Source: an uncultured Bacteroidota bacterium
Lineage (GTDB): Bacteria > Bacteroidota > Bacteroidia > Chitinophagales > Chitinophagaceae
Length of the DNA: 64,000 nt
Assembly: GCA_903858475.1 (NCBI GenBank)
Contig: CAIOIZ010000138.1
Span: 1 to 64,000, forward strand
Direction of reading: 5' to 3'
This document shows, piece after piece, positions 40,373 through 58,633 of this stretch. How positions within the stretch are numbered: the stretch's first letter is position 1; each line of letters starts with the position of its first letter. The position numbers were made by a program, and so were the translations under genes. The notes beneath the pieces were generated by a model, which saw only the letters and a list, made by a program, of their open reading frames with translations, made no database searches and was not told the origin of the DNA.

Positions 40373-41023
40373 TTAAGCATATTTCACTATGATGCTTTCA
40401 ATTACATTGGCAGCATCTTCACACTTGTCAGTAACGATCTCCATTACCTGATAAATTTCTCTCTTCTTAATAACTTCTTTCGCATCTGGCTCTTCAGCAA
40501 ACAAGCGCTCGATACTCATATCAAAAATATCATCAGCCTGGTTTTCGATACTATTGATAGCTACCAATGCATCGGTGATCTGACGCATATTTTTCATATT
40601 GCGCAATTCTACTACAGCCTTGTGAACTGCTACACAACCCTGCGCAATTACATCTGCCATTTTCTGAATGCCTATATCATTGGGATTAACTCGGTAGAAA
40701 TTTATTTTTTTAGCAGAAGCCTGAATATAATCTGCAATATCATCTAGTGCTGTAGCTAAATAGTGAATGTCTTCTCTGTCGAATGGAGTAATAAAATTTT
40801 TACCCAGTTCAGTAAATATCTGGTGGGTATAATCATCATTTACATGTTCCATATCTTCTACTTCTTTGATGAGTTTTGCTCTTTCATCAAAATCGGGTTC
40901 ATTTACTACTTCTTTAAGTTTTTCACCCATTTTTACCAATACATCGGCAACATTTTCAAATAATTGGAAAAATACCCTGTCTTTGGGTAAAAAGATTTTT
41001 AAAATTGAGTTGAGGCCTGCCAT
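40373..41023 (-). CDS. DUF47/PhoU-like phosphate transport regulator
   Basis: ORF; MAGLNSILKIFLPKDRVFFQLFENVAD, DREDIHYLATALDDIADYI; adjacent to the Pit gene. Confidence 0.9.
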   Translation of the reverse strand: MAGLNSILKIFLPKDRVFFQLFENVADVLVKMGEKLKEVVNEPDFDERAKLIKEVEDMEHVNDDYTHQIFTELGKNFITPFDREDIHYLATALDDIADYIQASAKKINFYRVNPNDIGIQKMADVIAQGCVAVHKAVVELRNMKNMRQITDALVAINSIENQADDIFDMSIERLFAEEPDAKEVIKKREIYQVMEIVTDKCEDAANVIESIIVKYA

Positions 41024-41082
41024 AATATACTTTTTTTGCAAAAGTAGATTATACTAGTTTGACTGCTTTAAATTTGCGAATG

Positions 41083-41143: not shown

Positions 41144-42445
41144 ATGTACAAGAAATACTTGATTGTACTCTTTATGATTACAATGTTTTCTACAGTCAAA
41201 GCTCAATTTTTGATGGATTTGGTGGATACATCTACTGATATTGGTAAAGGGATGCTTGCTATTTATAAAAAATTTGACAATATCAAAATTGGTGGATACA
41301 TCCAGCCTCAGTTTCAGGCTATTCAATTAAAAGGGGGTAAAAGTTTTAATGGCGGAGATTTTGCAATTAATCAAAATAATCGATTTATGCTTCGCAGAGG
41401 CAGGATTCGCTTTGATTATATACATTTTGCGGAAATAAAGGGCCCCTCTGTTCAATTTGTATTTCAATTCGATGGTACAGAGCGGGGTGTTTTTATTAGG
41501 GACTTTTGGGGGAGGATATTAGAAAATAAATACAAAGTATTTGCCTTAACTGCAGGAATGTTTGCCCGCCCTTTCAGCTATGAATTAAATTTATCGAGTA
41601 GCGATAGAGAGAGCCCAGAAAGGGGACGAATGAGTCAAATATTAATGAAAACAGAAAGGGATATGGGTGCCATGATTAGCTTTGAACCTCGCTTCAAATC
41701 ACATCCACTACGTTACCTTAAAATGGATGCTGGTTTATTCAATGGACAAGGACTGGCCGCTACTGCCGATTTTGATAGCCACAAAGATTTTATCAGTCGT
41801 ATCGCCCTGAAACCTTATCCAATTGGAAAGAAGATTCAATTGAGTATGGGAGCTTCCTATCTTAATGGAGGAATGCTTCAAAATACCAAGTATGTATATA
41901 CCAACACTACCAATAGTGCAGGAAAAACCTTTGTTGTAGATTCTTCCAGTGCCAACCTCGGCAAAATAGCTCCTCGAAAATATTATGGAATAGATGCTCA
42001 ATTGAAATTTAAAACAAAAGCAGGATTCACTGAACTAAGGGCAGAGTTAATGTCGGGTAAACAAACGGCAACAGCCGGATCCTCTGAAACACCAGGAGCT
42101 TTATTAACTGGCCAAGAAGGCTACTACGTTAGAAAATTCAATGGCGCCTATTTTTACTTGTTGCACAATATCTTTTCCCGTCATCATCAATTGGGAATAA
42201 AATATGACTGGTACGATCCAAATACCAATGTAAAAGGTTTAGATATTGGGAAGTCAGGCACATCAATAAATGCCACTAATATCAAATATAATACCCTAGG
42301 CTTTGGTTATATAAATTATATAAACGATAACCTGAAATTGGTTTTGTGGTACGAAAAAATTACCAATGAAAAAACGCAAATAGCTGGATTTACGCAAGAT
42401 GTAAAGGATGATGTATTTACTTGTCGCCTTCAATTCAGGTTTTAA
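41144..42445 (+). CDS. Phosphate-selective porin O/P-like outer membrane protein
   Basis: ORF 433 aa; signal peptide, GGYIQPQFQ, FMLRRGRIRFDY, barrel-like C-terminus ending RLQFRF. Confidence 0.8.
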   Translation: MYKKYLIVLFMITMFSTVKAQFLMDLVDTSTDIGKGMLAIYKKFDNIKIGGYIQPQFQAIQLKGGKSFNGGDFAINQNNRFMLRRGRIRFDYIHFAEIKGPSVQFVFQFDGTERGVFIRDFWGRILENKYKVFALTAGMFARPFSYELNLSSSDRESPERGRMSQILMKTERDMGAMISFEPRFKSHPLRYLKMDAGLFNGQGLAATADFDSHKDFISRIALKPYPIGKKIQLSMGASYLNGGMLQNTKYVYTNTTNSAGKTFVVDSSSANLGKIAPRKYYGIDAQLKFKTKAGFTELRAELMSGKQTATAGSSETPGALLTGQEGYYVRKFNGAYFYLLHNIFSRHHQLGIKYDWYDPNTNVKGLDIGKSGTSINATNIKYNTLGFGYINYINDNLKLVLWYEKITNEKTQIAGFTQDVKDDVFTCRLQFRF

Positions 42446-42623: not shown

Positions 42624-45600
42624 ATGAAGCAATTAAAGTACAAAACCATTCGGGATTTTGTTTTAACTTTTTTCATATTGATTTTTCCAGTTGCATTATT
42701 TGCACAATCCAATTTGCAAGTAAAGGGTAAGGTTTCAGATGCAATTACGAATAAATCGTTGGAAGGGGTAAGTATTAATATTAAAAAATCGCAGACAGGC
42801 ACAGTTACTAATTCTACCGGAGAGTTTAAAATTAGTCTTCCAAAAGGGGAAAAGATTATTGTGAGTTTGAGTGGATACCAAGAAGTACGACTTACAGTTA
42901 CTGAAGAGAATGTAGATATTAAATTATCGCCCCTTGCAAAACAAATGGAAGATGTGGTCGTAACGGCGTTGGGTGTACGAAAAGAAAAGAAAATAATTGG
43001 ATATTCCTCACAGGATATCAAGGGGTCTGATCTTGTTAAGGCCCGTGAACCAAACGCAATTAATTCATTGGTGGGCAAAGTAGCTGGATTAACAGTAGGC
43101 TCCTCGGCAGAATTATTGGGGAACCCTCAGGTTTTATTGCGTGGTGGTAATATTAATTTATATGTAATTGACGGAGTACCTATCAATTCCGATACCTGGA
43201 ATCTAAGTCCCGATGATATTGAAACTTACACAGTGTTGAAAGGGCCTGTGGCATCTGCACTATATGGATACCGTGGTCAGAACGGGGCTATTATCATTAC
43301 AACAAAGAAAGGAACCAAGGATAAGCGTGGTTTCTCCGTGGAGTTCAATAGTAGCAATATGATTAGCAAAGGATTTATTGCACTTCCAAAAACCCAGGAT
43401 CTCTACGGGCCTGGTGATCATGGTCAATATAAATTTGTAGATGGAAAGGGTGCTGGCGTAAATGATAATGACTATGATATCTGGGGGCCACGATTTGATG
43501 GACAGTTAATAGAGCAATATGATAGTCCAGTTGATCCAATAACCGGCATTCGTTCAAAAACGCCATGGACAGCTCGTGGTAAGGACAATTTGAAGCGGTT
43601 TATTCAAGCTGGTATTTTGTCTACCAATAATATTGCTGTTTCCTCCAGTGGCGAAAAATATGATTTGAGATTTTCGGTAGGACAAACCTATCAGCGCGGA
43701 TTAGTACCCAATACTAAATTAAATACCACCAATTTCAATTTGGCCTCCACTTTGAAATTCAGTAAAAAATTATCATTGGATGCTAATATTAATTTTAATA
43801 AACAGTATACAGATAATATTCCTGATGTCAATTACGGACCAAACAGTGTTATTTATAATATAACTATTTGGGGTGGTGCAGATTGGAGTATGGATGATAT
43901 GCATAATTATTGGCAGCCTGGTAAGGAAGGTATTCAAAGTAATTATGCCGAATATCAACGCTATCATAACCCTTATTTTATGAGTTATGAATGGTTAAGA
44001 GGGCATCATAAAAATGATATTTATGGGTATGCTAGCTTAAACTACAAGTTTAATAATAATATAGAAATAATTGGCAGAAGTTCTATTACTACTTATGATA
44101 TGATTCGCACAGAAAAAATGCCATTCTCTGCTCATCCCTATGGAAGAGAAGGTGGATTGGGTGATTATCGGGAAGATAAAAGGTCTTTGTTTGAAAACAA
44201 TACAGAGCTGATGGTAAAATTCAAATCACCAAAAATTGCGAATTTCCTTGGTATTAATGGTTTTGCAGGTGCCAATATGCGCAACTTTAGTTATGCTTCT
44301 AGTTTTGTTACAACTGATTATTTAAATGTTCCCAACGTTTACTCATTTGCAAACAGTTTAAATCCTGTAAAAGCATACAGTTTTAATTCAGACATGCGAG
44401 TGCCGAGTGCTTTTTATTCATTGGATTTTTCTTTGGGAAAATATGCCAATATTAATACTACAGGACGAGTAGATAAATTATCTGCATTGATGACTGCTAA
44501 TAATACTTTTTTCTACCCATCTGTTAATCTGAGTACAGTAGTTTCAGACTATGTAAAATTACCATCCTTAGTTTCCTTCTTGAAATTCCGTGGGTCTTTT
44601 GCTCAGGTACGTGGGGGTGGTGCATTTGTTTCAAATTCAATTGGAGCAACACCTGGTAATAGTTATCCATTGGGTTATGGCACGGAGTATACATCGAGCT
44701 ATGGTGGGCCTAGTTATACGTTTAACAATGTATACAGCACTGGTATAGGGTACAATAATTCAACTGAAGCAAGGTTTACAAGTAATTTGGTAGATGAAAA
44801 CATAAAACCTGATAATAGAACCAGTACAGAAATTGGCATGGATATGAAATTCCTGAAAAATAGATTTGGACTGGATATAGCCTACTTTAATTATACAGAT
44901 GGCCCTCAGATTTTTAACAAACAAATTTCGGCTGCAAGTGGTTATTCTAATTATACCATTAATGCTACAAAAACTAAAAAATCAGGCCTTGAAATATCAC
45001 TTTCAGGCAACCCGGTAAAACTAAATAATGGATTTAGTTGGGATGTTCTACTAAACTGGTCAACCTTTAAAGAAAAGTATTCAGAATTGCCTCCAGGTGT
45101 TGCAACAATTGGCACTTTTTATAAAGTTGGTAGTAGGGTGGATGAAGTTTATATTAGAAAATTTGCACGAACTCCAGATGGACAAATTATTAACGATGGA
45201 GGTGGACGTCCAATAGTATTACCAGTTGCACAGTTTGCAGGATATGCTAATCCAAAATGGGTTTGGGGCTTTAATAACAAATTCAACTATAAAAACATTT
45301 CACTCAGTTTTCAATTTGATGGCCGTGTAGGTGGTGTAATGGAAGATTATGTTCGTAAGAAGACCTTTCAAGGTGGACGTCATATTGAAACAGTTGAAGG
45401 AGCGTTTGGTACTTCTAGGTATGATGATACCAAAGGTGTTAAATCCTATTTAGGTGAAGGTGTTCAGGTTTCAAATGGTACTCCTATCAGTTATGATCCG
45501 GTTTCAGGTGTAATTACCAATTACAATAATTTACAGTTCACTCAAAATGCAACTAAAACCTATGTGCAAGATTATATCAGCAGGGTGCATGGAATACCTG

Positions 45601-45857
45601 AACCTAATATGATGAGTAAAAGTTATTTAAAATTGAGAGAAATTGTCTTGACATATAATTTATCTGACAAAATTTTGAGCAAAACATTTATCAAAAGCGC
45701 CAATATCTCCTTTGTGGCAAGAAATGTTTTATACTTTATGAAGGATAAAAAATTCAAAGATGTTGATATCGATCAGTTTGCGGGAAGTCAATCAAGTACC
45801 AACTTACAAACACCTACCACCAGAAACTATGGAATTAATTTAAACATCGTTTTTTAG
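42624..45857 (+). CDS. SusC/RagA-family TonB-linked outer membrane protein
   Basis: ORF 1077 aa; carboxypeptidase-regulatory-like N-terminal domain, VVVTALGVRKEKKIIGYSSQ, plug and barrel, LKGPVASALYGYRGQNGAIIITTKKG. Confidence 0.96.
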   Translation: MKQLKYKTIRDFVLTFFILIFPVALFAQSNLQVKGKVSDAITNKSLEGVSINIKKSQTGTVTNSTGEFKISLPKGEKIIVSLSGYQEVRLTVTEENVDIKLSPLAKQMEDVVVTALGVRKEKKIIGYSSQDIKGSDLVKAREPNAINSLVGKVAGLTVGSSAELLGNPQVLLRGGNINLYVIDGVPINSDTWNLSPDDIETYTVLKGPVASALYGYRGQNGAIIITTKKGTKDKRGFSVEFNSSNMISKGFIALPKTQDLYGPGDHGQYKFVDGKGAGVNDNDYDIWGPRFDGQLIEQYDSPVDPITGIRSKTPWTARGKDNLKRFIQAGILSTNNIAVSSSGEKYDLRFSVGQTYQRGLVPNTKLNTTNFNLASTLKFSKKLSLDANINFNKQYTDNIPDVNYGPNSVIYNITIWGGADWSMDDMHNYWQPGKEGIQSNYAEYQRYHNPYFMSYEWLRGHHKNDIYGYASLNYKFNNNIEIIGRSSITTYDMIRTEKMPFSAHPYGREGGLGDYREDKRSLFENNTELMVKFKSPKIANFLGINGFAGANMRNFSYASSFVTTDYLNVPNVYSFANSLNPVKAYSFNSDMRVPSAFYSLDFSLGKYANINTTGRVDKLSALMTANNTFFYPSVNLSTVVSDYVKLPSLVSFLKFRGSFAQVRGGGAFVSNSIGATPGNSYPLGYGTEYTSSYGGPSYTFNNVYSTGIGYNNSTEARFTSNLVDENIKPDNRTSTEIGMDMKFLKNRFGLDIAYFNYTDGPQIFNKQISAASGYSNYTINATKTKKSGLEISLSGNPVKLNNGFSWDVLLNWSTFKEKYSELPPGVATIGTFYKVGSRVDEVYIRKFARTPDGQIINDGGGRPIVLPVAQFAGYANPKWVWGFNNKFNYKNISLSFQFDGRVGGVMEDYVRKKTFQGGRHIETVEGAFGTSRYDDTKGVKSYLGEGVQVSNGTPISYDPVSGVITNYNNLQFTQNATKTYVQDYISRVHGIPEPNMMSKSYLKLREIVLTYNLSDKILSKTFIKSANISFVARNVLYFMKDKKFKDVDIDQFAGSQSSTNLQTPTTRNYGINLNIVF

Positions 45858-45878
45858 TCAACTTATAAATATAAACTA

Positions 45879-47435
45879 ATGAAAAATTTATTTGCAATCA
45901 TATCATTAAGTGCTTTAGTACTTATTGCATCTTGCACAAAAAAATTCGATAATTTACAAATAGATCCAAATCGTACAACCAGTGTTCCAGCAAACCTAGT
46001 GCTGAATAGTGTTTTGTCTGATATTTATCAAAGTCCGTTTAGTCCAACTCAGCGGTGGAACCAGTTTTACGCATGTAACTATGCTTATTATGGTGATCAG
46101 CAGTATACCTGGTCGGGAATTTCTTTCGGCACTTTTAATACACTTAAAAATGTAATTAAAATGGAAGAAGAAGCTGCTAAATCTATTCCTGCTCCCAATG
46201 CTTACAGCGCATTAGGTAAATTTTTGAGAGCCTATTTATTTTACAATTTGACAATGCAAACTGGCGATATTCCTTTGTCAGAAGCATTAAAGTCTTTAAA
46301 CAATATCGCACCTAAATACGATACTCAAAAAGAAGTGTTTAAGCAAATTCTTACTTGGTTGGAAGAAGCTAATACTGATATGACTGGACTAATTACTAAA
46401 GGGGGCTATATCTTATCAAGCGATTTTTATTATGCTAATAATCTTTCAAAGTGGAGAAAAGCAGTAAATGCTTTTAAACTTCGTGTATTGATTCAGTTAA
46501 GTAAGCAAGACGCTGATGTGGATTTAAATATTAAGCAAAAGTTTGCTGAAATTTTTAATAATCCTTCAAAGTATCCTTTATTTGCTGACATGACAGAAAA
46601 CATGGAATACACTTATAATACACAGTATAATAAGTACCCAACTAACCCCGAAAGTTTTGGTTTTGATGCAGCCAGGTATAATATGACTTCCACCTATTTA
46701 AATACATTAGTTGGAATCAGTGATCCCCGTACATTTTATGTGGCTGAACCCGCTGCGGCTTTGGTTGCTGGTGGTGCTGCTTCAAATAGCTTTGCAGCCT
46801 TTGCAGGAGCTGGCAGTGGCGAAGATTTGGCTACTATGAGCGCAAATGCAGGCTTAGGCAAATATTCATTTATCAATAGAAAAAGATATTATAGCACATT
46901 CACTGCTGAAAAGACTATACAAATTGGTTACCCAGAAATGTGTTTCAATATTTCAGAAGCTGCTAACAGAGGATGGATTAGTGCAGATGCAGAAGATTGG
47001 TATAAAAAAGGTATACAAGCAAGTATTGGGTTTTATGGAATAGTGAATGGTAATAATGCAGTTAATTTTCAAAAAATCGGTGGTACCTTGAATGAGTATA
47101 ACACTTATTCAATTAATTACGATTTTACAACTTATTATAATCAATTGTCTGTTAAATACAATGGCAATAATTCAACAGGCTTACAGCAAATATTAACACA
47201 AAAATACCTTGCTTTCTATCAAAATAGCGGATGGGAAGCATATTATAATTGGCGGAGAACTGGTATTCCAACATTTCATACGGGTCCTGGAAATGGAAAC
47301 AGTAATCGAGTAGCTTTACGTTTTCAATATCCAAGTTCGGAGAAGTCAATTAATCAGGCAAATGTAAATGCCGCTATTCAAAGTCAATATGGTGGGCAGG
47401 ATGATATTAATGCAAAAATGTGGATTGTAAAATAA
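45879..47435 (+). CDS. SusD/RagB-family outer membrane lipoprotein
   Basis: ORF 518 aa; lipobox LIASC, YLFYNLTMQTGDIPLSEAL, downstream of SusC. Confidence 0.93.
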   Translation: MKNLFAIISLSALVLIASCTKKFDNLQIDPNRTTSVPANLVLNSVLSDIYQSPFSPTQRWNQFYACNYAYYGDQQYTWSGISFGTFNTLKNVIKMEEEAAKSIPAPNAYSALGKFLRAYLFYNLTMQTGDIPLSEALKSLNNIAPKYDTQKEVFKQILTWLEEANTDMTGLITKGGYILSSDFYYANNLSKWRKAVNAFKLRVLIQLSKQDADVDLNIKQKFAEIFNNPSKYPLFADMTENMEYTYNTQYNKYPTNPESFGFDAARYNMTSTYLNTLVGISDPRTFYVAEPAAALVAGGAASNSFAAFAGAGSGEDLATMSANAGLGKYSFINRKRYYSTFTAEKTIQIGYPEMCFNISEAANRGWISADAEDWYKKGIQASIGFYGIVNGNNAVNFQKIGGTLNEYNTYSINYDFTTYYNQLSVKYNGNNSTGLQQILTQKYLAFYQNSGWEAYYNWRRTGIPTFHTGPGNGNSNRVALRFQYPSSEKSINQANVNAAIQSQYGGQDDINAKMWIVK

Positions 47436-47464
47436 GTTTTAAACCTTACCATTGAACCTTAAGT

Positions 47465-47488
47465 GATGGGGCCTTTAGGGGCTCCATC
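47465..47488 (+). other. Intercistronic hairpin between susD and the first phosphoesterase gene
   Basis: GATGGGGCCT...GGGCTCCATC stem (about 10 bp, two G-U wobbles) without a T-tract. Confidence 0.6.
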
Positions 47489-47506
47489 CACTATTTAAAA
47501 TAATGT

Positions 47507-50290
47507 ATGTTCAAACTATTTAAAAATATTGTTCTAACCTTTTTATTTTTCACTTTAGCGAATAATGTGCTTTCACAAAAGCTACAATATTTTACAACTT
47601 TACAAGTACCTGGTAAGGATAGTTTTTGTAAAATCAATACTACTGGAGTCTCTATTTTACCAAGCGGTAGATTCGTACAGCCTGCTGGTTCAGTTATTCG
47701 AATAACCAACGATCCGTTTGGAATGGCCATTGCACCCAATGGACAAAAAGCAGTGACATTGCATAATGGCGTTTTTACAATTATAGATTTAGTAACCATG
47801 CAAGCTGTTAGGGTGCCCGATTATTCCGGCAAAACTAATTCGCCATTAGCACATTTTCCAATCACTGATTCAATTTCATATACAGATAGCATAAATGCTG
47901 TTGGTGCAAAATCGCCTTTATCAAAGGGTTCTTTTTTAGGTGTTGCTTTTGCACCTGATTCCAAAAAAATCTATTTAAGTGGTGGAGATAATGGAGCTGT
48001 AATAGTTTTTGATATTGAAAAAATGCTTCGAATAGACTCCATTTCTTTAAATGGTAAAATGGGAAACGATTATTTTGATGATAGCTTCACATCGGATTTA
48101 TTATTACTTGACAATGAATTATTGATTTTAGATCGAGCTAATTTTCGGATGGTTCGATATGATATTGTGGCAAAAAAAATGATTGCTTCAATCCCTGCTG
48201 GCCGACAGCCCTTTGGATTAGCCATTAGTCCGGATAAAAACACTGCCTTTGTAGCCAATGTCGGAATGTACGCCTACCCTTTAATTACTGGCATGGATTC
48301 ATCCAATTATAATGAAATGATGATAAGCCATCATCCCTATGGAAATAATACAAAGGAATCTCGAGAAGGAACTACTATTGATGGTAAAAAAATTCCTGGT
48401 CTTGGTAGCCCTAATGCACCTGAAGCAATGAGTGTTTTCAGTATCGATTTGATAAAAAATAGGGTTAGTCATATTTATAAAACGGGATATCAAATTGGAG
48501 AAATGGTGGAAGGTGTTGAAGTTGTGGGAGGTGCAAGCCCCAATTCAATTGCTGTTGGTAAATCATATGCTTATGTATCTAATGCCACCAATGATAATAT
48601 TGCTGTTATTGATTATAGGCAACAAAAAATTATTGCGCACATACCTATCAAAGTGGATAAGGAGTTGGATAAGTATCGTGGTTTACTACCTTTTGGTCTT
48701 ACGCTCTCCAAGGATGAAACAAAACTTTATGTTGCATTACTGGGCTTTAATGCAATTGCTGTTATTGACCTCAATTCCAATAGAACAATTGGATTAATAC
48801 CAACAGGTTGGGGTCCAACTAGGGTAAAATTATCAAATGATGATAGTGAAATCTACGTCGTTTCATGCAGAGGACTTGGTGCAGGACCAAACGGCGGGCT
48901 CGGATTTATTGCACCTCCTCAAGGCACTTATATTGGAGATATTCAATTGGGCAGTTTTCAAAAATTAAAAATGCCTACGGCCAGTCAACTAACATCTTTT
49001 ACTCAAGTAGTTATTAATAATACCTATACCAAAATACAAGTACAACAGCCATTAGCCAATCCTTTACCAGTATTGCCGGGTGTATCAAAATCACCCATAA
49101 AATATATTGTGTATATAACAAAAGAGAACAGAACATACGATGAAGTATTTGGCCAATTGAAAAATGCAAATGGAGATAGCAGCCTTGCTAGGTTTGGTGT
49201 TGACTGTGAATATGTATTGCCCGATAGTATCAAACCCCATTTTCCACAATTAAAAATCACACCAAATCATCATAAAGCTGCAAAGCAATTTGCATTTAGT
49301 GATAATTTTTACTGTGATAGTGATGCCTCCATACATGGACACCATTGGATGATGGGAGTTATACCAAACGAATGGGTGGAAGCAAATTCCAGTGTAGATA
49401 AGACGGCTGCCTATTTTTCAAAAGCCCCTGGCCGTCGGTTTCCAGGTTCAACTGGAAGCATGGATCCTGAAGATTATGCTGAAAAAGGCGGACTATGGGA
49501 AGCTTTAGAAAGGAAAAAATTAAATTTTTACAATTTTGGAGAAGCAAATGAAACCGCACATGTAAGAGAAGAATGGAGTGATACAGCTACCGGTGCTGCA
49601 CATGCAGTAATGGTGCCAATGCAAAAGGCATTGTTTACTAGAACGAGCAGAGAATATGCGGGATATAATACAAATATTCCCGATCAATTTAGAATGAATC
49701 AGTTTGAAAATGTATTTACCAATAAATGGATTAAGGGGAAAGAAAAAATGCCTTCTTTAATTACTGTTCAAATACCTAATGATCATACAGCCGGACCAAG
49801 ACCTGAAGATGGTTACTTTACCAGGAGCTCGTATGTTGCTGATAATGATCTAGCGGTTGGTAGGATTTTACATTTCTTATCAAGAACAGCTTATTGGAAG
49901 AATATGCTGGTTATTATTACAGAAGATGATCCACAAGGAGGCGTTGATCATATTGACGCTCATAGAAGTATCCTCATGATGGCAGGTCCTTATGTTAAAA
50001 AGAGGTATATTAGTCATACACATGCCAACTTTGGATCAATTTTGAAAGTAATTTATAATATATTAAACGTGCCATATGTTAATCAATATGATGCGACCGC
50101 TTCACTTTTGCAGGATTTTTTTACCAATCAACCAGACTTTACTCCATACAGCTTAGAAAAGCATGATACTAGAGTTTTTGATATCGATAAAGCGATGAAA
50201 AAATATCATCAATCTATTGATTGGCGTAAAATTATGCAAGGGCCCGCAATGGATAATCCAACTGATATGAAAAAAACATTTCTTCAATAA
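47507..50290 (+). CDS. Secreted YncE-like beta-propeller / phosphoesterase (phospholipase C-like, PF04185-type) protein 1
   Basis: ORF 927 aa; signal peptide, propeller repeats, KENRTYDEVFGQL, NDHTAGPRPEDG, ITEDDPQGGVDHIDAHRS. Confidence 0.88.
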   Translation: MFKLFKNIVLTFLFFTLANNVLSQKLQYFTTLQVPGKDSFCKINTTGVSILPSGRFVQPAGSVIRITNDPFGMAIAPNGQKAVTLHNGVFTIIDLVTMQAVRVPDYSGKTNSPLAHFPITDSISYTDSINAVGAKSPLSKGSFLGVAFAPDSKKIYLSGGDNGAVIVFDIEKMLRIDSISLNGKMGNDYFDDSFTSDLLLLDNELLILDRANFRMVRYDIVAKKMIASIPAGRQPFGLAISPDKNTAFVANVGMYAYPLITGMDSSNYNEMMISHHPYGNNTKESREGTTIDGKKIPGLGSPNAPEAMSVFSIDLIKNRVSHIYKTGYQIGEMVEGVEVVGGASPNSIAVGKSYAYVSNATNDNIAVIDYRQQKIIAHIPIKVDKELDKYRGLLPFGLTLSKDETKLYVALLGFNAIAVIDLNSNRTIGLIPTGWGPTRVKLSNDDSEIYVVSCRGLGAGPNGGLGFIAPPQGTYIGDIQLGSFQKLKMPTASQLTSFTQVVINNTYTKIQVQQPLANPLPVLPGVSKSPIKYIVYITKENRTYDEVFGQLKNANGDSSLARFGVDCEYVLPDSIKPHFPQLKITPNHHKAAKQFAFSDNFYCDSDASIHGHHWMMGVIPNEWVEANSSVDKTAAYFSKAPGRRFPGSTGSMDPEDYAEKGGLWEALERKKLNFYNFGEANETAHVREEWSDTATGAAHAVMVPMQKALFTRTSREYAGYNTNIPDQFRMNQFENVFTNKWIKGKEKMPSLITVQIPNDHTAGPRPEDGYFTRSSYVADNDLAVGRILHFLSRTAYWKNMLVIITEDDPQGGVDHIDAHRSILMMAGPYVKKRYISHTHANFGSILKVIYNILNVPYVNQYDATASLLQDFFTNQPDFTPYSLEKHDTRVFDIDKAMKKYHQSIDWRKIMQGPAMDNPTDMKKTFLQ

Positions 50291-50301
50291 ATACCTATCA
50301 A

Positions 50302-52719
50302 ATGACTAACAGTGCTGGAAAATGGCTTTGCCTTATTTTATTAATTAGTTCGACAACTGTATTTGCTCAGTCAACTAAAGAGAAAAAATTACTACCAAAC
50401 GGTTGGATATTGTCTCCTGCAGGCCGCAATTTGTCTTTAGGGGATTTGCCCTTAAATATGGCATTAAGCAATTCCGGAAAATTACTGGCAGTTACCAATA
50501 ATGGACAAAGTGTTCAAAGTATTCAGTTAATTGATCCAGTACAGGAAAAAATACTGGACAATATCGTGGTGGCAAAATCCTGGTATGGATTGAAATTTTC
50601 GGCCGATGAAAAATATTTATATGCGAGTGGCGGCAATGATAATTGGATATTGAAATATGCAGTAAAGGACAAAAAATTAGTGTTGGCGGATTCAATTGTT
50701 CTTGGAAAAAAATGGCCCAACAAAATATCTGTGGCAGGTATTGATATCGATGACCAATCCAATACTTTATTTGTTGTTACTAAAGAAAATAATTCATTAT
50801 ACTTAATTGATTTAATCAGCAAAGCAATCCTGTTTAAGGATACCCTAAATGAACCTGCCTATGCCTGTAAGCTATCGTTCAATAAAAAGGAACTGTATAT
50901 ATCATTGTGGGGTGGAAAAAAAGTGCTGGTCTTTGATATTGCATCCAAAAAAATGGTCTATAGTTTTGAAGTAGGCGAAAATCCCAATGAATTATTATTG
51001 TCTTCAAATGGTCGTATACTATATGTAGCCTGTGCAGGAGATAATGCCGTTTATGTAATGGACACCAAAAAACGAAAGGTACTGGAAGTGCTGAATACTG
51101 CATTGTACCCCAATGCACCAACGGGCTCTGCTGCAAATGGACTAGCCCTAAATAAGCAAGAAAATACTTTGTATGTAGCCAATGCCGATAATAATTGTTT
51201 GGCAGTATTTGATGTATCAAAACCTGGCAATAGTTTATCCAAAGGCTATATACCTACTGGTTGGTATCCTACCAATATTAAAGTGGTCGGTAAAAAAATA
51301 TTTGTTACCAATGGCAAAGGTTTTTCCTCCTTTCCAAATGCAAAAGGCCCCGACCCCAGTAGTGCCAATCAGGAAGTAACCTATCAACAAGGTGATTATA
51401 AAAAACAACAAAGCAAAATTCAATACATCGGCGGATTGATGAAAGGAAATATGAGCATCATTGATATTCCCTCTCCAAAACTACTGGGTTTATATTCCAA
51501 GCAAGTATATGAGAATACACCATACACAAAAGAAAGAGAATTATTATCAAAGGGTGAAATGGGCAATCCAATTCCAATGAAGCTGGGGGATAAATCGCCC
51601 ATTAAATATGTGTTTTATATAGTAAAAGAAAATCGTACCTACGACCAAGTATTGGGTGATATACCAGAAGGGAATGGGGATACTAGTTTGGTCTTGTTTG
51701 GAGAAAACATCACACCCAATCAACATAAATTAGCCAGGGAATTTGTATTGCTCGATAATTTTTATGTTGATGGTGAAGTTAGTGCCGACGGACATAACTG
51801 GAGTTTGGCTGCTAATGCCAACGACTATTTAGAAAAAACCTGGCCTAGTAGTTATGGTGGAAGAGGTGGTAATTATGATGCAGAAGGCAATCGGGAAGTA
51901 TCGAATCCTGATAGAGGTTTTATTTGGGATTATTGTAAAAGGGCAGGCATTAGTTATCGGACTTATGGCGAATTTGCAGATGGCTATAAGCCCAATATAC
52001 CGGTTCTAAAAAATCATTTTTGTCCCTATTATACAAGCTGGGATGAAAAAGTAAGAGACACTACCCGTTTTTATCAGTGGAAAAGAGAATTTGATTCTTT
52101 GCTCTCTCAAAATGCAGTACCCCAATTTAATTCTCTTCGTTTTATTAACGATCATACTGAAGGTGCAAAAATTGGCCGTCCTACTCCATTTGCCCATGTG
52201 GCAGACAATGATTGGGCAGTAGGTCTTTTTGTAGAATATTTGAGCAAGAGCCCCATCTGGAAAGAAACGGCCATTTTTATTGTGGAGGACGATGCGCAAA
52301 ACGGTCCCGACCATGTGGATGCACATCGTACAACTGCCTATGTTGCGGGTGGTTTTGTTAAAAGAAAATTTGTTGACCATAATATGTACTCCACTTCTTC
52401 GATGCTGCGCACGATTGAATTAATTCTTGGTTTGTCTCCTATGAGTCAGTATGATGCAGCAGCAGAACCAATGTGGAGGTGCTTCCAAACCAATCCTGAT
52501 TTGCAACCATTTCTTTCTGTACCTGCCATGGTTGACATTACTGAAAAAAATACAAAACATACTTCAAGTGCAGTAATCAGTAGTCAGTTTGATTTAAGTA
52601 AGGAAGATCAAATACCTGATTTAGAATTCAGTCAGGTAATTTGGAAAACTGTAAAGGGGGAACACAGTATTATGCCGGCACCTAGAAGAAGTGCATTTGT
52701 AAATACCAGTAATAAGTAA
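50302..52719 (+). CDS. Secreted YncE-like beta-propeller / phosphoesterase protein 2 (paralogue)
   Basis: ORF 805 aa; signal peptide, KENRTYDQVLGDI, NDHTEGAKIGRPTP, VEDDAQNGPDHVDAHRT. Confidence 0.88.
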   Translation: MTNSAGKWLCLILLISSTTVFAQSTKEKKLLPNGWILSPAGRNLSLGDLPLNMALSNSGKLLAVTNNGQSVQSIQLIDPVQEKILDNIVVAKSWYGLKFSADEKYLYASGGNDNWILKYAVKDKKLVLADSIVLGKKWPNKISVAGIDIDDQSNTLFVVTKENNSLYLIDLISKAILFKDTLNEPAYACKLSFNKKELYISLWGGKKVLVFDIASKKMVYSFEVGENPNELLLSSNGRILYVACAGDNAVYVMDTKKRKVLEVLNTALYPNAPTGSAANGLALNKQENTLYVANADNNCLAVFDVSKPGNSLSKGYIPTGWYPTNIKVVGKKIFVTNGKGFSSFPNAKGPDPSSANQEVTYQQGDYKKQQSKIQYIGGLMKGNMSIIDIPSPKLLGLYSKQVYENTPYTKERELLSKGEMGNPIPMKLGDKSPIKYVFYIVKENRTYDQVLGDIPEGNGDTSLVLFGENITPNQHKLAREFVLLDNFYVDGEVSADGHNWSLAANANDYLEKTWPSSYGGRGGNYDAEGNREVSNPDRGFIWDYCKRAGISYRTYGEFADGYKPNIPVLKNHFCPYYTSWDEKVRDTTRFYQWKREFDSLLSQNAVPQFNSLRFINDHTEGAKIGRPTPFAHVADNDWAVGLFVEYLSKSPIWKETAIFIVEDDAQNGPDHVDAHRTTAYVAGGFVKRKFVDHNMYSTSSMLRTIELILGLSPMSQYDAAAEPMWRCFQTNPDLQPFLSVPAMVDITEKNTKHTSSAVISSQFDLSKEDQIPDLEFSQVIWKTVKGEHSIMPAPRRSAFVNTSNK

Positions 52720-52735
52720 AACAATAGTCAAGTTT

Positions 52736-54769
52736 GTGAGAAGTTTTTTTATTATTTCTTTATTGCTTGTTTTGCCTTTGTTTATATTGTCTCAAGAGCA
52801 GCGACAATATCCTAAGGATTCTCTACAAAACCTGGATGAATTAGTGGTGATTGCGCAAAAACAAATACGCAATAAATTACTTGTACCCTATAATGTAAAT
52901 TCAATTGGCATTAAGGAAATGAATGCTCATCAGTTTAGAACGGTTCCAGAGGCATTGTCAGGAATAAATGGCGTTTTTCTTCAAAAAACAAATCATGGTG
53001 GAGGTGCACCCATTATAAATGGAATGATGGGAAACCAAATATTGGTATTGGTTGACGGTATACGATTGAACAATTCAACTTTTCGATATGGGCCTAATCA
53101 ATATAGCAATACTATTGATGTTTTTACAGTACAAAAAATTGAAGTAGCAAAGGGTACAGGCGCTGTTCAATATGGAACGGATGCCATGGGTGGCGTAATT
53201 AATATTGTAACTAAAGATCCCACTTTCAGTACTTCTAAACCTATTTTTTCTGGATCTGCCATTGCAAAAATTGTTTCCTCAGCTATGGAACAATCGCTAA
53301 GAACTGAGGCTGGCTGGGCAAATCAAAAAATTGCGCTTTCAGCTGGTTTTACCAAAAGAAATTTTGGCGATTTAATTGGAGGTGCCAACACAGGCAAACA
53401 ATCGCCTACAGGATATAAAGAATGGGCAACAGATTTTAAAGCAAAGGTTTTATTAAAGCAAAATATTGTTTTAACCTTTAGTCATAATTATCTACAGCAA
53501 CAAAATGTTCCCGTTTATCATAAAGTGCAATTGGAAAATTATTTTATCAACGAAATGAATCCCCAGCAGCATAGTTTGACATTTTTGCGCTTTGTTGCAA
53601 ATAGCAATAATAAATGGATTAAGGAAAAATCAATTACGTTATCCTATCAAAAAGCAGTGGAAGGGCGTTCTAGTATAAAAAATGGTAGTACAATTTTTAG
53701 AAATGAAAGAGATGAGGTTAAGACGGTAGGGCTGACTACAGATTTTTTTACAGGTTGGGGTAAGGTTTGGACGGCTAATTCGGGTATCGAAGCATATTGG
53801 GATAAAGTATTTAGTACAAGAGAAGATATCAATTCGATCAGCCACGAGTCAATTTCAAAAAGAGGTCTTTATCCTGACCAATCAAAATATAATAATTATT
53901 CTATATATAGCTTGCATCACTTTAATGTTCGAAATTGGATATTTGATGCAGGGTTAAGATTTAATAAATTTAATGCTGTAATTAAGGATTCATTATTAGG
54001 TAAACTTAATTATCATCCCAGTGCATTTGTTGCAAATTTTGCCATTTTAAAGAAAATTGGTAAAAATCAATCCGTTTATGTTTCATTTAGTAACGGTTTT
54101 AGAGCGCCCAATATTGATGATATGGGAAGTCTTGGAATAGTAGATTTTCGCTATGAAACACCTGCATTTAATCTTCGGCCAGAAAAATCACGCAATGTTG
54201 AATTGGGATACAAATTGCAAAGCAAAAAAATTGCTGCAACCATTTCAATTTACCATTTGCAATTACTCGACCTGGTTACCAGAATCAAATTGGAAGGGCA
54301 AATTATGAATGGGTATCCGGTATATAAAAAGGAAAATACGTCCTCAGCTTATGTAAATGGATTGGAGACTTCTATCAACTGGGTGATTAATAAAAACATC
54401 ACTTGTAATTCCATGCTTGCCTATACATATGGTCAAAATATTACCTTAAAGGAACCGCTTCGAAGAATCCCACCATTAAATGGAAAAATATCGAGTGCTT
54501 ATAATAAAAATATTTGGAGTGTAGGAGCTGTATTCCAATTTGCTTCAAGGCAAACAAGGTTGGCACAAGGAGATAAAGAAGATAATCGAATTGGGCCAAA
54601 TGGTACTGCAGGCTGGAAATCATTAAATCTGTTTGGTACGGCTACGTATAAACAAATTCAAATAGCAGCAAGTTTAAATAATTTATTTAACGAAAACTAT
54701 CGGACTCATGGTAGCGGTATTAATGAAATGGGAAGGAGCTTATCTGTAACCGTTGGAATTAAATTATAA
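52736..54769 (+). CDS. TonB-dependent outer membrane receptor
   Basis: ORF 677 aa, GTG start; signal peptide, MGNQILVLVDGIRLNNSTF, VEVAKGTGAVQYGTDAMGGVINIVTK-like plug. Confidence 0.92.
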   Translation: MRSFFIISLLLVLPLFILSQEQRQYPKDSLQNLDELVVIAQKQIRNKLLVPYNVNSIGIKEMNAHQFRTVPEALSGINGVFLQKTNHGGGAPIINGMMGNQILVLVDGIRLNNSTFRYGPNQYSNTIDVFTVQKIEVAKGTGAVQYGTDAMGGVINIVTKDPTFSTSKPIFSGSAIAKIVSSAMEQSLRTEAGWANQKIALSAGFTKRNFGDLIGGANTGKQSPTGYKEWATDFKAKVLLKQNIVLTFSHNYLQQQNVPVYHKVQLENYFINEMNPQQHSLTFLRFVANSNNKWIKEKSITLSYQKAVEGRSSIKNGSTIFRNERDEVKTVGLTTDFFTGWGKVWTANSGIEAYWDKVFSTREDINSISHESISKRGLYPDQSKYNNYSIYSLHHFNVRNWIFDAGLRFNKFNAVIKDSLLGKLNYHPSAFVANFAILKKIGKNQSVYVSFSNGFRAPNIDDMGSLGIVDFRYETPAFNLRPEKSRNVELGYKLQSKKIAATISIYHLQLLDLVTRIKLEGQIMNGYPVYKKENTSSAYVNGLETSINWVINKNITCNSMLAYTYGQNITLKEPLRRIPPLNGKISSAYNKNIWSVGAVFQFASRQTRLAQGDKEDNRIGPNGTAGWKSLNLFGTATYKQIQIAASLNNLFNENYRTHGSGINEMGRSLSVTVGIKL

Positions 54770-54771
54770 AA

Positions 54772-55359
54772 ATGAATAAGCAATCCATAAGTCAAATTGT
54801 TGACGAAATTCTTCAATTATATCAAAAATTTGGCAATCAAGATTATATTGGCGAAAGCATATCTCAAATTGAGCATATGTCGCAGTGTGCACAACTTGCT
54901 GAGGCAGCAGGAGCTGATGACGAGATAATACTTGCTGCTTTTTTCCATGACATTGGCCATTTGTGTGAGTTTGCCTTTCCCGAAAAATCATTTCAGCACA
55001 TGGATAGTTGCGGTATAGTAGATCATGAAAAATTGGGTGCTGCGTATTTAATAAGTAAAGGGTTCTCCGCTCACATAGCCAATCTGGTACAAAGTCATGT
55101 TGATGCTAAACGTTATTTAACTTATTGCGATCCTACCTACTATCAATTATTATCTGAAGCCAGTAAGAAAACCCTTTCTTTCCAAGGCGGCCCTATGAAT
55201 TCTGAAGAAGCCAAAATGTTTAAGGAAAATAATTTATTTAATCAAATGTTGGCAATTCGACATTGGGATGATCAGGCGAAATGTACAAATGTTCCACTGC
55301 CGGATATGCAAAAATATTCAACAATGATGGCGAAGCATTTATCAACTCAAGCGCAATAG
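54772..55359 (+). CDS. PhnZ-like HD-domain oxygenase (phosphonate-degradation-associated HDIG protein)
   Basis: ORF 195 aa; YIGESISQIEHMSQCA, FFHDIGHLCEF, DHEKLGAAYL, VQSHVDAKRYL. Confidence 0.85.
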   Translation: MNKQSISQIVDEILQLYQKFGNQDYIGESISQIEHMSQCAQLAEAAGADDEIILAAFFHDIGHLCEFAFPEKSFQHMDSCGIVDHEKLGAAYLISKGFSAHIANLVQSHVDAKRYLTYCDPTYYQLLSEASKKTLSFQGGPMNSEEAKMFKENNLFNQMLAIRHWDDQAKCTNVPLPDMQKYSTMMAKHLSTQAQ

Positions 55360-55360
55360 A

Positions 55361-56035
55361 ATGGATATCAAACTGGTTGTTTTGGATATAGCAGGTACAA
55401 CTGTCGACGAAAATAATATTGTCTATAAAACTTTACAGAAAGTAATTAATAATGCTGGGTATAAAGTGCAACTAGACGAAGTGTTAATGAAAGGCGCTGG
55501 GAAGGAAAAGTACAATGCTATTATTGATATAATTAAGAATGAAGAATATCCAGTTAATAGCATGGATGCCAAACGAATCCATAGTGATTTCAAAATTGCA
55601 CTCGCTGAGGCATATACTTCATTTTTGATAAAGCCACAGCCTGGTGTGATGGATTTGTTTCACTATTTTAAAAAGAATAATATAAAAGCTGTTTTGAATA
55701 CTGGTTATGACAGGCAGACTGCCATTTCTATAATAAATAAATTGAATTGGGTTATCGGTGAAACCTTCGACGGATTGGTAACAGCATCTGATGTAAATAG
55801 AAATCGACCATTTCCAGATATGATTTTTCTTGCTATGCAACAGTTTGGAATTACTGATCCAAATAAATTAGTTAAAGTAGGGGATTCCTGCATCGATATT
55901 GAAGAAGGAAAAAATGCAGGATGTGCTTTAAGTGTAGGTATTACTACGGGAGCACAAACAGCCCCACAGCTTTTAAAAGCAAATCCTGATGCAATCATTA
56001 CTCATTTAAATGAACTGTTACCACTCATTCAATAA
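55361..56035 (+). CDS. Phosphonatase-like HAD hydrolase (PhnX relative)
   Basis: ORF 224 aa; LDIAGTTVDEN, cap KGAGKEKYNAI, NTGYDRQT, RPFPDM, VGDSCIDIEEGKNAG. Confidence 0.87.
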   Translation: MDIKLVVLDIAGTTVDENNIVYKTLQKVINNAGYKVQLDEVLMKGAGKEKYNAIIDIIKNEEYPVNSMDAKRIHSDFKIALAEAYTSFLIKPQPGVMDLFHYFKKNNIKAVLNTGYDRQTAISIINKLNWVIGETFDGLVTASDVNRNRPFPDMIFLAMQQFGITDPNKLVKVGDSCIDIEEGKNAGCALSVGITTGAQTAPQLLKANPDAIITHLNELLPLIQ

Positions 56036-56037
56036 GT

Positions 56038-57354
56038 ATGACAACTTCATTTGCTGTTAAAAATGAGCGCAAAAACAATCTTCGCCTTAAGAACTCACCA
56101 CTCTTAATTGTTATTTATATTTCAGTTTGTGCTTTTGTGATTTATAGTTCAATGTATGGATTTCGAAAACCTTATACTGTTGGGGAATATGGAACCCTGC
56201 ATTTTTTTGGAATTTCTTATAAAGTATGTTTAGTAATCGCCCAGGTATTGGGCTATATGTGTAGTAAATTTTTAGGGATACGCTTTATTTCTTCTATGAA
56301 GCCTGAAAATCGCCTAAAATATATTTTGTTATTTATAGGCATTGCATGGCTGGCATTATTGTTATTCGCTTTAATACCGGCGCCGCTTAATATACTTTGT
56401 ATGTTTATCAATGGACTTCCACTAGGGATGGTTTTTGGATTGGTTTTCGGATTTTTAGAGGGTAGGAAGACTACAGAAATAATGGGAGCTATACTAGTTA
56501 CTAGTTTTATTTTTGCTGCAGGAGTAGCCAAATCTTTAGGTAAGTGGTTATTGCTTGACTGTAATATCAATGGCAATTGGATGCCATTTGTAGCGGGTGC
56601 ATTTTTTATAATACCCTTACTTGTTGCAGTGGGGCTTTTGCAGTTTGCTCCTGCCCCAAATCAAGAAGATATTGCCCTGAGAACAGTTAGGAATCCGATG
56701 ACTGCCACTGAGCGGAAAGCATTTATTCGAACCTTTGGTTTTACCCTGATTCCTGTGGTCCTATCTTATGCTATTTTTACCATCACCAGAGATTTTTGCG
56801 AGGATTTTGTTAATGAACTTTGGGCTGAAACTGGATTTAAGAATAACGCTTCCATTTTTACACAATCAAGTAGTATTATTTCCTGTATTGTATTGGTAGT
56901 GATAGCTGTTTTTTTTCTTATTAAAAATAATTTACTCGCATTTAGGTTAACCCATTTTTTAGTAATGATTGGAATTTCCATTTCCGCAATTTCAACCTTT
57001 CTTTTTAATGCAAATTTTATTGGCCCTTTTAGCTGGATTTTATTTGCAATTTCCGGCTTGTACCTTGCCTATCTGCCCTTTAATTGTTTATATTTTGAAA
57101 GAATGCTTGCCTTACATAAGATTAAAGGCAATGTTGGTTTTGTTATGTATATCGCTGATGCATTTGGGTATCTTGGTACTGTCAGCGTATTACTAATAAA
57201 AGAGTTTATTCCCCTTCAATATAACTGGGTAAACTTCTTTTCATTTTTATTTTATACAGCTGCAATTTTGGGTTTACTATTGATGGTGCTTACATTGAAA
57301 CTACACAATAATCTAATTTTAAAATTATGGAAAAAAGAACAGCCATTGTTATAG
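56038..57354 (+). CDS. DUF5690-type / MFS-like multi-TM membrane protein, putative phosphonate transporter
   Basis: ORF 438 aa; about 12 hydrophobic segments, N-terminal YGFRKPYTVGEY resembling organophosphate:phosphate antiporters; within the operon. Confidence 0.7.
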   Translation: MTTSFAVKNERKNNLRLKNSPLLIVIYISVCAFVIYSSMYGFRKPYTVGEYGTLHFFGISYKVCLVIAQVLGYMCSKFLGIRFISSMKPENRLKYILLFIGIAWLALLLFALIPAPLNILCMFINGLPLGMVFGLVFGFLEGRKTTEIMGAILVTSFIFAAGVAKSLGKWLLLDCNINGNWMPFVAGAFFIIPLLVAVGLLQFAPAPNQEDIALRTVRNPMTATERKAFIRTFGFTLIPVVLSYAIFTITRDFCEDFVNELWAETGFKNNASIFTQSSSIISCIVLVVIAVFFLIKNNLLAFRLTHFLVMIGISISAISTFLFNANFIGPFSWILFAISGLYLAYLPFNCLYFERMLALHKIKGNVGFVMYIADAFGYLGTVSVLLIKEFIPLQYNWVNFFSFLFYTAAILGLLLMVLTLKLHNNLILKLWKKEQPLL

Positions 57355-58466
57355 GCGCTGGAATAGTTGGACTTGCAACTGCAAGGGCCTTAGGTCAAGC
57401 TGGATTTTCAGTTAAAGTATTTGAGCGGAATGCTAAAGCTATTGGGGCCTCTATAAGAAATTTTGGTATGGTCTGGCCAATTGGTCAGCCAATGGGGAAA
57501 TTATATAAACGGGCTATGCGTAGTCGCGAAATATGGATGCAAATTTCTAAGATAACAGGAATTTGGTCGCATGCATGCGGAAGCTTACACTTGGCTTATT
57601 CTTTGGAAGAATGGCAGGTGTTAAAAGAGTTAGCAGAAATATTTAAATTGGAGGGGCGGGATGTTCAATTATATTCAGCAGAAAAAATTCAAGCTGAGTA
57701 CGAATATGTGCAATTAAATAACTTATACGGAGGATTGTTTAGTGCCGATGAATTACTTGTTGACCCTAGAGAAGCACTGAATCAAATTCCAAACTACCTC
57801 AGTGAACAATTCGGGATTGAATTTTATTGGAATAACTGTGTAAATAAAATTGAAGACAAAGTTGTATACATTGGCAACAAAGCAGCATATAGTGCAGAAA
57901 TAATTGTTGTTTGTAGTGGCATGGATTTTGAAACACTTTACCCTGAGGTATTTGAAAGTGCAACAATAACAAAGTGTAAACTTCAAATGTTAAGATCAGT
58001 TATACAGCCCAACGATTTTAAACTTCGTACGGCTATTTGCGGTGGACTTTCACTTCTTCACTATACAAGTTTTAAAGCAGCCCCTTCTTTAGCAACACTA
58101 CATAAAAAATTAAAAACTGAAATGGACATTTATCTTTCAAATGGCATACATGTGATGGCTGCACAAAATGGCATTAATCAAATAACTATTGGCGACTCTC
58201 ATGAATATGGGCAATCCTTTGACCCTTTTGACAAATCTTATATCAACCAATTAATATTAGATTATCTACAAGGAATATTGAAGATTCCGAATCAGGCAAT
58301 CGAAGAAACCTGGCATGGCATATATCCTAAAATGACCAATGGAGATACGGAAATGTGTCTTTCACCTGAGCCTGGCGTATTTATCATTAATGGATTGGGG
58401 GGGGCGGGGATGACCCTATCTTTCGGATTGGCTGAAGAATTGATTGGAGAAATCATTGGGAAGTGA
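57327..58466 (+). CDS. FAD-dependent oxidoreductase of the phosphonate-associated (TIGR03364-like) clade
   Basis: ORF 379 aa; AIVIGAGIVGLATARAL dinucleotide-binding motif, GASIRNFGMVWPIGQP, INGLGGAGMTLSFGLAEE; 28-bp overlap with the upstream gene. Confidence 0.82.
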   Translation: MEKRTAIVIGAGIVGLATARALGQAGFSVKVFERNAKAIGASIRNFGMVWPIGQPMGKLYKRAMRSREIWMQISKITGIWSHACGSLHLAYSLEEWQVLKELAEIFKLEGRDVQLYSAEKIQAEYEYVQLNNLYGGLFSADELLVDPREALNQIPNYLSEQFGIEFYWNNCVNKIEDKVVYIGNKAAYSAEIIVVCSGMDFETLYPEVFESATITKCKLQMLRSVIQPNDFKLRTAICGGLSLLHYTSFKAAPSLATLHKKLKTEMDIYLSNGIHVMAAQNGINQITIGDSHEYGQSFDPFDKSYINQLILDYLQGILKIPNQAIEETWHGIYPKMTNGDTEMCLSPEPGVFIINGLGGAGMTLSFGLAEELIGEIIGK

Positions 58467-58540: not shown

Positions 58541-58618
58541 TTAACATTCCCGTAACATACAGGTAACATTAGCGTAACCTTTCATTCATCTTCTCGTAAC
58601 ATACAAGGCTTCTCTTTG
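58541..58618 (+). promoter_or_regulatory. 11-bp-phased direct repeats (Pho-box-like) plus -7-like TCTCTTTG
   Basis: TTAACATTCCC GTAACATACAG GTAACATTAGC GTAACCTTTCA TTCATCTTCTC GTAACATACAA; -7-like box at 58611. Confidence 0.75.
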
Positions 58619-58633
58619 CACAAATATTATTGC

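Follow-up and report, generated by a model that had tools for sequence, protein, structure and literature searches.

A SusCD-linked phosphonate gene cluster of Chitinophagaceae and its probable role in aminophosphonate uptake and catabolism

What does a SusC/SusD (SusCD) pair import when phosphoesterases and phosphonate-cleaving enzymes are encoded behind it? The question is raised by positions 42624-58466 of contig CAIOIZ010000138.1 (assembly GCA_903858475.1), from an uncultured Bacteroidota bacterium of the Chitinophagaceae with a genome of 3.06 Mb in 165 contigs, 96% complete. The window analysed is the first 64,000 nucleotides of this contig. With a probability of roughly 0.7, we read the locus as an uptake and catabolic system, laid out like a polysaccharide utilisation locus (PUL), that is dedicated to aminophosphonates, probably esterified to a larger molecule. 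Nine plus-strand genes make up the locus, and all open reading frames of the initial annotation are present, with the positions and types that it gave:

42624-45857, plus strand: SusC-like TonB-dependent outer-membrane channel (TIGR04056, 421 bits, over the cut-off)
45879-47435, plus strand: SusD-like surface lipoprotein (PF12771, 200 bits; lipobox IASC)
47507-50290, plus strand: PE1, beta-propeller (YVTN) with PF04185 phosphoesterase; Sec-like signal, no lipobox
50302-52719, plus strand: PE2, beta-propeller (YVTN) with PF04185 phosphoesterase (48 bits); Sec-like signal, no lipobox
52736-54769, plus strand: accessory TonB-dependent receptor (PF00593, PF07715)
54772-55359, plus strand: PhnZ-type HD diiron oxygenase (TIGR03276, 209.3 bits)
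55361-56035, plus strand: PhnX-like phosphonatase of the HAD family (TIGR03351, 218.3 bits)
56038-57354, plus strand: DUF5690, predicted inner-membrane transporter of major facilitator superfamily (MFS) fold (PF18943, 487 bits)
57327-58466, plus strand: PbfD-type FAD oxidoreductase of (N-methyl-)aminoethylphosphonate (TIGR03364, 405.6 bits; cut-off 285.1)

Intergenic gaps among the first five genes are 21 bp (SusC-SusD), 71 bp (SusD-PE1), 11 bp (PE1-PE2) and 16 bp (PE2-receptor), followed by 2 bp (receptor-HD), 1 bp (HD-HAD), 2 bp (HAD-DUF5690) and -28 bp (DUF5690-FAD); the tight spacing of -28 to +2 bp noted earlier for the last four junctions is thus as measured.

The conserved linkage of SusCD with phosphonate enzymes, which the initial annotation had singled out beforehand as the test of its proposal, held. 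An even sample of the phylum (393 genomes) contained 17 genomes besides our own with a full-length TIGR03276 HD gene, and in 16 of these both SusC and SusD lie within about 10 kb of it, the exception being locus L225 (binomial probability about 1e-10 if a background of 20% is assumed). Among 148 relatives, TIGR03276 matches filled 20 rows, one of them our own genome, and were full-length in 17 relatives. We also examined 80 HD loci, the best HD matches from named genomes, a set chosen by HD and query similarity and not unbiased. SusD is present in 62 of them at a median distance of 2.5 kb, co-directionally in 60 of the 62, and HAD, DUF5690 and FAD genes are found as well in 52 of the 62. The genera represented include Ferruginibacter, Sediminibacterium, Terrimonas, Mucilaginibacter, Pedobacter, Algoriphagus and Imperialibacter; in Mucilaginibacter and Pedobacter the SusCD pair stays with the phosphonate genes in a rearranged, divergent layout. 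Carriers available in culture include Sediminibacterium soli WSJ-3 (L052), Hydrotalea sandarakina DSM 23241 (L055) and Mucilaginibacter gossypiicola (L118).

A search anchored on SusD, which is independent of the HD gene, recovered 20 SusD genes scoring more than about 340 bits, spread over 17 of the 148 relatives and our own genome. Sixteen share a stretch with phosphonate genes, one of them (G080 C83) by way of a PhnO-like acetyltransferase that scores just 92 bits, and the remaining four are cut off by the end of their contig, in genomes that do have such genes. Across the relatives, SusD and HD occur together in 13 genomes, SusD only in four, HD only in four and neither in 127 (Fisher p 3e-12, a value that takes no account of shared ancestry). 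Our own genome has seven SusD genes in 3.06 Mb, a density that predicts about 0.05 SusD genes by chance within 12 kb of the HD gene; this figure and the 16/17 recurrence in the phylum rule out chance adjacency. Hence the data support SusCD and the phosphonate enzymes forming one conserved unit.

The SusD phylogeny (an IQ-TREE quick tree of 99 rows) contains a clade of 58 sequences with an SH-like approximate likelihood-ratio support of 99, of which 54 are phosphonate-linked, four come from contig-truncated loci and none from the background. For most of the 54, the linkage follows from the way they were chosen, through HD-anchored loci; the independent evidence is the SusD-anchored search. In a second, separate clade 17 of 19 sequences are phosphonate-linked, which implies more than one origin or transfer of the pairing. 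Background sequences came from close genomes and include some very long branches that are possibly not SusD, and the deep branching order is uncertain.

The importer is also retained where the enzymes behind it are exchanged. Four genomes of the SusD-only class (G016, G058, G078 and G074) keep SusC-SusD-PE1 and DUF5690 with the PhnZ module replaced. Loci L160, L161 and L162 combine SusCD with PhnA, a PhnY-type aldehyde dehydrogenase, PhnW and DUF5690, and L165 combines SusCD with a PhnX-like HAD (TIGR03351), PhnW and DUF5690. In L160 the PhnA, PhnY and PhnW genes, and in L165 the PhnW gene, exceed the NCBIfam equivalog cut-offs; for the phosphonate genes of L161 and L162 the assignment is by similarity alone. 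HD genes stand together with PhnWYA-type genes in G270 (L223) and in L038/L035. Since PhnW acts on 2-aminoethylphosphonate (AEP), the shared importer would most simply follow AEP-type substrates.

Are the cytoplasmic enzymes competent for such substrates? The HD protein scores 5.3 bits under the TIGR03276 cut-off (209.3 against 214.6), a cut-off that several relatives exceed, and matches PhnZ (4mlm) at 169 bits (E 8e-49) in comparison to 113.5 bits for TmpB. It keeps the diiron ligands H..HD..H..H..D and the amine-binding YxxE loop that define the PhnZ type (PMC8177086), with Y25, E28, H35, H59, D60, H85, H109 and D166 invariant in 11 homologues. The HAD protein falls 0.6 bits short of the TIGR03351 cut-off (218.3 against 218.9), which its L165 homologue passes at 233.3 bits, and its best PDB matches are phosphonoacetaldehyde hydrolases. 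The equivalents of PhnX Asp12 (nucleophile), Lys53 (Schiff-base) and Asp186 are invariant in 20 HAD sequences; Cys22 is not kept. The reference here was what we take to be the B. cereus PhnX sequence, which agrees with the stretch printed for the PDB chains. The FAD enzyme is well over its cut-off and belongs to the family of PbfD1, and homologous PbfD enzymes convert AEP and N-methyl-AEP to phosphonoacetaldehyde (PMC10590968). The enzymes look catalytically intact for aminophosphonates. In place of a single path for breaking the carbon-phosphorus (C-P) bond, the locus encodes two putative routes, one oxidative and PhnZ-type, the other hydrolytic and PbfD/PhnX-like. Some HD/HAD loci carry an inserted HpnZ-like alcohol dehydrogenase (TIGR03366; L075:11242-12357 and L169:5390-6481), the L169 copy scoring 304.5 bits against a cut-off of 328.1.

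The DUF5690 protein is predicted to be an inner-membrane transporter, its AlphaFold model having a confident MFS fold (pLDDT 88.7). The best PDB matches in a fold search were G6PT/SLC37A4, with other MFS proteins close behind. Sequence searches against PDB sequences and against GlpT alone gave no match, whereas a profile comparison with GlpT-type proteins gave an end-to-end, colinear but weak match (probability 19%, pairwise E 0.0013) in which the invariant Arg43 and Arg251 align with GlpT Arg45 and Arg269. DUF5690 is possibly a relative of the organophosphate:phosphate antiporters, which we offer as a lead and not as proof; no paper on DUF5690 was found in the open-access literature searched. 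Some PhnA loci have no DUF5690 but carry a GlpT-like transporter. Three such loci from distant families (L235, L237 and L240) carry a secreted protein of 820-840 amino acids resembling the alkaline phosphatase superfamily and a GlpT-type MFS protein, with neither SusD nor DUF5690.

The phosphoesterases bear on where the substrate would be cut. Residues E443, N444, D663, D664, H671 and H675 are invariant across PE1 and PE2, and PE2 has a profile match to AcpA (2d1g). An AlphaFold model of PE2 (pLDDT 70.5, pTM 0.60) was uninformative on the esterase substrate, with propellers only among the 50 fold matches listed. The hydrolase slot varies among loci, being filled by PE1/PE2, a PF01663-like phosphodiesterase (PDE), GDPD, or calcineurin-like or PTP-like enzymes, yet a phosphoesterase-type gene is present in every SusD-bearing HD locus of at least 18 kb. 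The accessory TonB-dependent receptor is found in 10/80 HD loci. PE1/PE2 and this receptor are interchangeable accessories and do not belong to the core. Lipoboxes, scored by a simple pattern, with signal peptides judged by eye as Sec-like N-termini, occur in 0/17 PE2, 3/26 PE1, 1/58 PDE and 0/12 GDPD proteins versus 59/78 SusD proteins, and a profile search of the locus phosphoesterases for a type IX secretion tail gave no match. Cleavage at the surface, as first suggested, is therefore disfavoured and import followed by periplasmic hydrolysis more likely; the phosphoesterases are probably periplasmic. A further secreted protein of 434-447 amino acids, with no Pfam match and a metallo-beta-lactamase-like THFHDDHFG motif, lies between SusD and PDE (L060:7558-8883, L059:7569-8873), and its family is present in 10/80 HD loci.

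Taken together, we infer the substrate form, compartments and order of steps as follows. SusD would bind at the surface an aminophosphonate that is probably still esterified to a larger molecule (a phosphonolipid headgroup or phosphonoglycan), and SusC would import it. Periplasmic PE1/PE2, or in relatives PDE, GDPD, calcineurin-like or PTP-like enzymes, would cut the P-O-C ester and release the aminophosphonate, which DUF5690 would move over the inner membrane. Of the cytoplasmic enzymes, PbfD would convert AEP or its N-methyl form to phosphonoacetaldehyde, the PhnX-like enzyme would split this to yield acetaldehyde and phosphate, and the oxygenase of PhnZ type would cleave 1-hydroxy-2-aminoethylphosphonate (HAEP) to glycine and phosphate.

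Regulation by phosphate may be part of this model. The phosphorus-acquisition region extends past the locus on both sides. Its nearest neighbours are:

38600-40312, minus strand: Pit-type phosphate transporter (PF01384, 318 bits)
40373-41041, minus strand: DUF47/PhoU_div protein, the usual Pit partner (PF01865, 76 bits)
41144-42445, plus strand: OprO/OprP-like porin, weak match (PF07396, 19.5 bits; cut-off 20.9)
58616-61408, plus strand: second TonB-dependent receptor (PF07715, PF14905)
61433-62893, plus strand: lipoprotein paired with the second receptor (lipobox ISSC; no Pfam or NCBIfam match)

The porin gene is co-located in L031 and L032 too. Downstream, the receptor and lipoprotein are joined by genes for a metalloenzyme-superfamily phosphatase, PAP2, a glycosyltransferase and a calcineurin-like protein, and the same contig carries a PhoB/PhoR-like response regulator and histidine kinase pair. 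The low-phosphate phoBR cluster of F. johnsoniae likewise comprises a TonB receptor and lipoprotein, a glycosyltransferase and PhoBR (PMC8115612), a likeness by family and not a tested orthology. A scan for sigma-70 promoters and terminators, which is not suited to Bacteroidota, gave counts near those of shuffled sequences. A protein of 736 amino acids with no Pfam match adjoins the PhoB-like regulator (C138:74242-76452; L023:12242-14452), and close to several HD loci its homologues are likewise next to this regulator pair. An XRE-cupin protein of about 190 amino acids, a candidate substrate-responsive regulator, lies near SusC or HD in 28/80 loci (e.g., L091:9138-9716, L028:16263-16838); it was not found in our own genome.

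How does the locus compare with known systems? Phosphate utilisation systems (PUS I-IV, with PusCD) were published in 2020 for Flavobacterium as PUL-like systems, and one sentence of that text mentions, without specifying them, phosphonate-degrading enzymes co-localised with PusCD complexes (PMC8115612). A PUS is recognised by SusCD with phosphoester hydrolases or other phosphorus enzymes, and the locus has both; the PUL-like logic for organic phosphorus is also shared, and probably the periplasmic placing of hydrolases. In Flavobacterium, PusD is polyphyletic and the loci are mostly for phosphodiesters and monoesters and induced by phosphate depletion (PMC8115612), whereas the SusD clade here is tied to PhnZ, PbfD, PhnX-like and DUF5690 genes across several families. 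No Flavobacterium title appears among the best 80 HD matches, and the PhoBR-like pair on the contig is circumstantial as a sign of PUS-type induction. The idea of a phosphorus counterpart of a PUL, put forward in the initial annotation, is already in the PUS paper (PMC8115612).

With a PUL the locus shares the adjacent SusC/SusD pair (21 bp apart), co-directional enzymes and a variable hydrolase slot. A Pfam/NCBIfam scan found no carbohydrate-active enzyme family among the nine genes, so the locus was not filed as a PUL; phosphoesterases and C-P enzymes take the place of such enzymes. More distant SusCDs in relatives stand beside a laminarinase-like gene (L178 and L179, named from sequence only). 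The PhnZ-like features are those of the PhnY-PhnZ pathway, but the PhnY hydroxylase is missing here, and Pseudomonas TIGR03276 genes (L111, L116) adjoin an apparent ATP-binding cassette (ABC) importer, not SusCD. Clusters of pbfD with phnX and no phnW are known (PMC10590968), and the locus resembles them in pairing a FAD enzyme of TIGR03364 with a phosphonatase-type HAD in which Asp12, Lys53 and Asp186 are kept. It differs in that the HAD is of the TIGR03351 subfamily with His56 changed to Ala, and in the added PhnZ-type gene, SusCD and DUF5690. The AepP/GlpT antiporters share the MFS fold and the two aligned arginines, the latter in a weak profile match, but other MFS families fit DUF5690 nearly as well.

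Dedication to aminophosphonates, probably esterified ones, is supported by the linkage, the independent SusD anchor, the enzyme replacement, the active sites and the phosphoesterase co-occurrence, as well as by the neighbouring phosphorus genes and PhoBR-like pair. Several points weigh against it. No PhnY-type hydroxylase stands beside PhnZ, and a PF05721 search of our own genome found only two remote PhyH proteins (24 and 19 bits against the 500-bit cut-off of the methylphosphonate hydroxylase PhnY). The PhnX His56 position is Ala in 19/20 HAD sequences; some HD loci lack SusCD (e.g., L081, L095, L105, L119 and L225); PhnA loci elsewhere in the phylum are mostly without SusD (present in 1/7); PE1/PE2 also occur beside other SusCDs without phosphonate genes (L177, L180) and are not phosphonate-specific; and related genomes are not independent samples. 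The locus is real, conserved, catalytically plausible and testable, and its putative function is deduced from sequence and context only.

That PE1/PE2 accompany other SusCDs, in pairs that may be phosphodiester versions of the system, and that unrelated enzymes fill the hydrolase slot would also suit another account, in which SusCD imports small free aminophosphonates and the phosphoesterases serve other phosphoesters, grouped with it merely as phosphorus-scavenging genes. Small-molecule ABC transporters are reportedly lacking in Bacteroidetes (PMC8812569), which is consistent with this account. We consider it unlikely, as every SusD-bearing HD locus of sufficient length has its phosphoesterase-type gene. 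SusCD systems, an importer type that ordinarily serves sugar uptake, moreover usually take oligomers. The setting among Pit, DUF47, porin, TonB receptor/lipoprotein, phosphatase and PhoBR-like genes could alternatively mark a PHO-regulon island, in which independent scavenging modules share regulation and SusCD takes general phosphodiesters with no special link to phosphonates. This is distinctly improbable given a SusD clade with 54/58 members phosphonate-linked and the other four contig-truncated, a linkage that is largely exclusive outside PHO regions, survives in the rearranged Mucilaginibacter/Pedobacter layout and persists through the enzyme replacement in L160-L162 and L165. A general phosphodiester SusCD is disfavoured by the same SusD tree and enzyme replacement.

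The family-level names PhnZ and PhnX-like might also mislead, the cytoplasmic enzymes using a phosphonate aldehyde or hydroxyphosphonate other than those of AEP/HAEP; the HD and HAD scores just under the TIGR cut-offs and the loss of PhnX His56 and Cys22 point that way. With the YxxE loop, the diiron ligands and the phosphonatase Asp/Lys/Asp kept, PbfD over its cut-off and PhnW next to a TIGR03351 HAD in L165, we regard this as very improbable.

What appears new, judged against the open-access papers searched, among which none joined PhnZ, TonB and Bacteroidetes, is a SusD clade fixed to PhnZ, PhnX-like, PbfD and DUF5690 genes across families and kept under enzyme replacement, together with a candidate inner-membrane carrier. 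Evenly balanced, in our estimate, is the broader idea of a phylum-wide SusCD class for phosphonate-bearing macromolecules (phosphonolipids or phosphonoglycans), in which the importer clade is fixed, the periplasmic ester hydrolase and the cytoplasmic C-P chemistry are exchanged, and DUF5690 is a new phosphonate carrier of the inner membrane. Most work on phosphonate degradation has dealt with small, free compounds and with ABC importers. Should our reading be true, Bacteroidota would possess an outer-membrane route specialised for bound phosphonates, many unassigned SusCD pairs would gain a substrate class and DUF5690 a likely role, and the environmental turnover of phosphonolipids and phosphonoglycans would have a directly testable answer.

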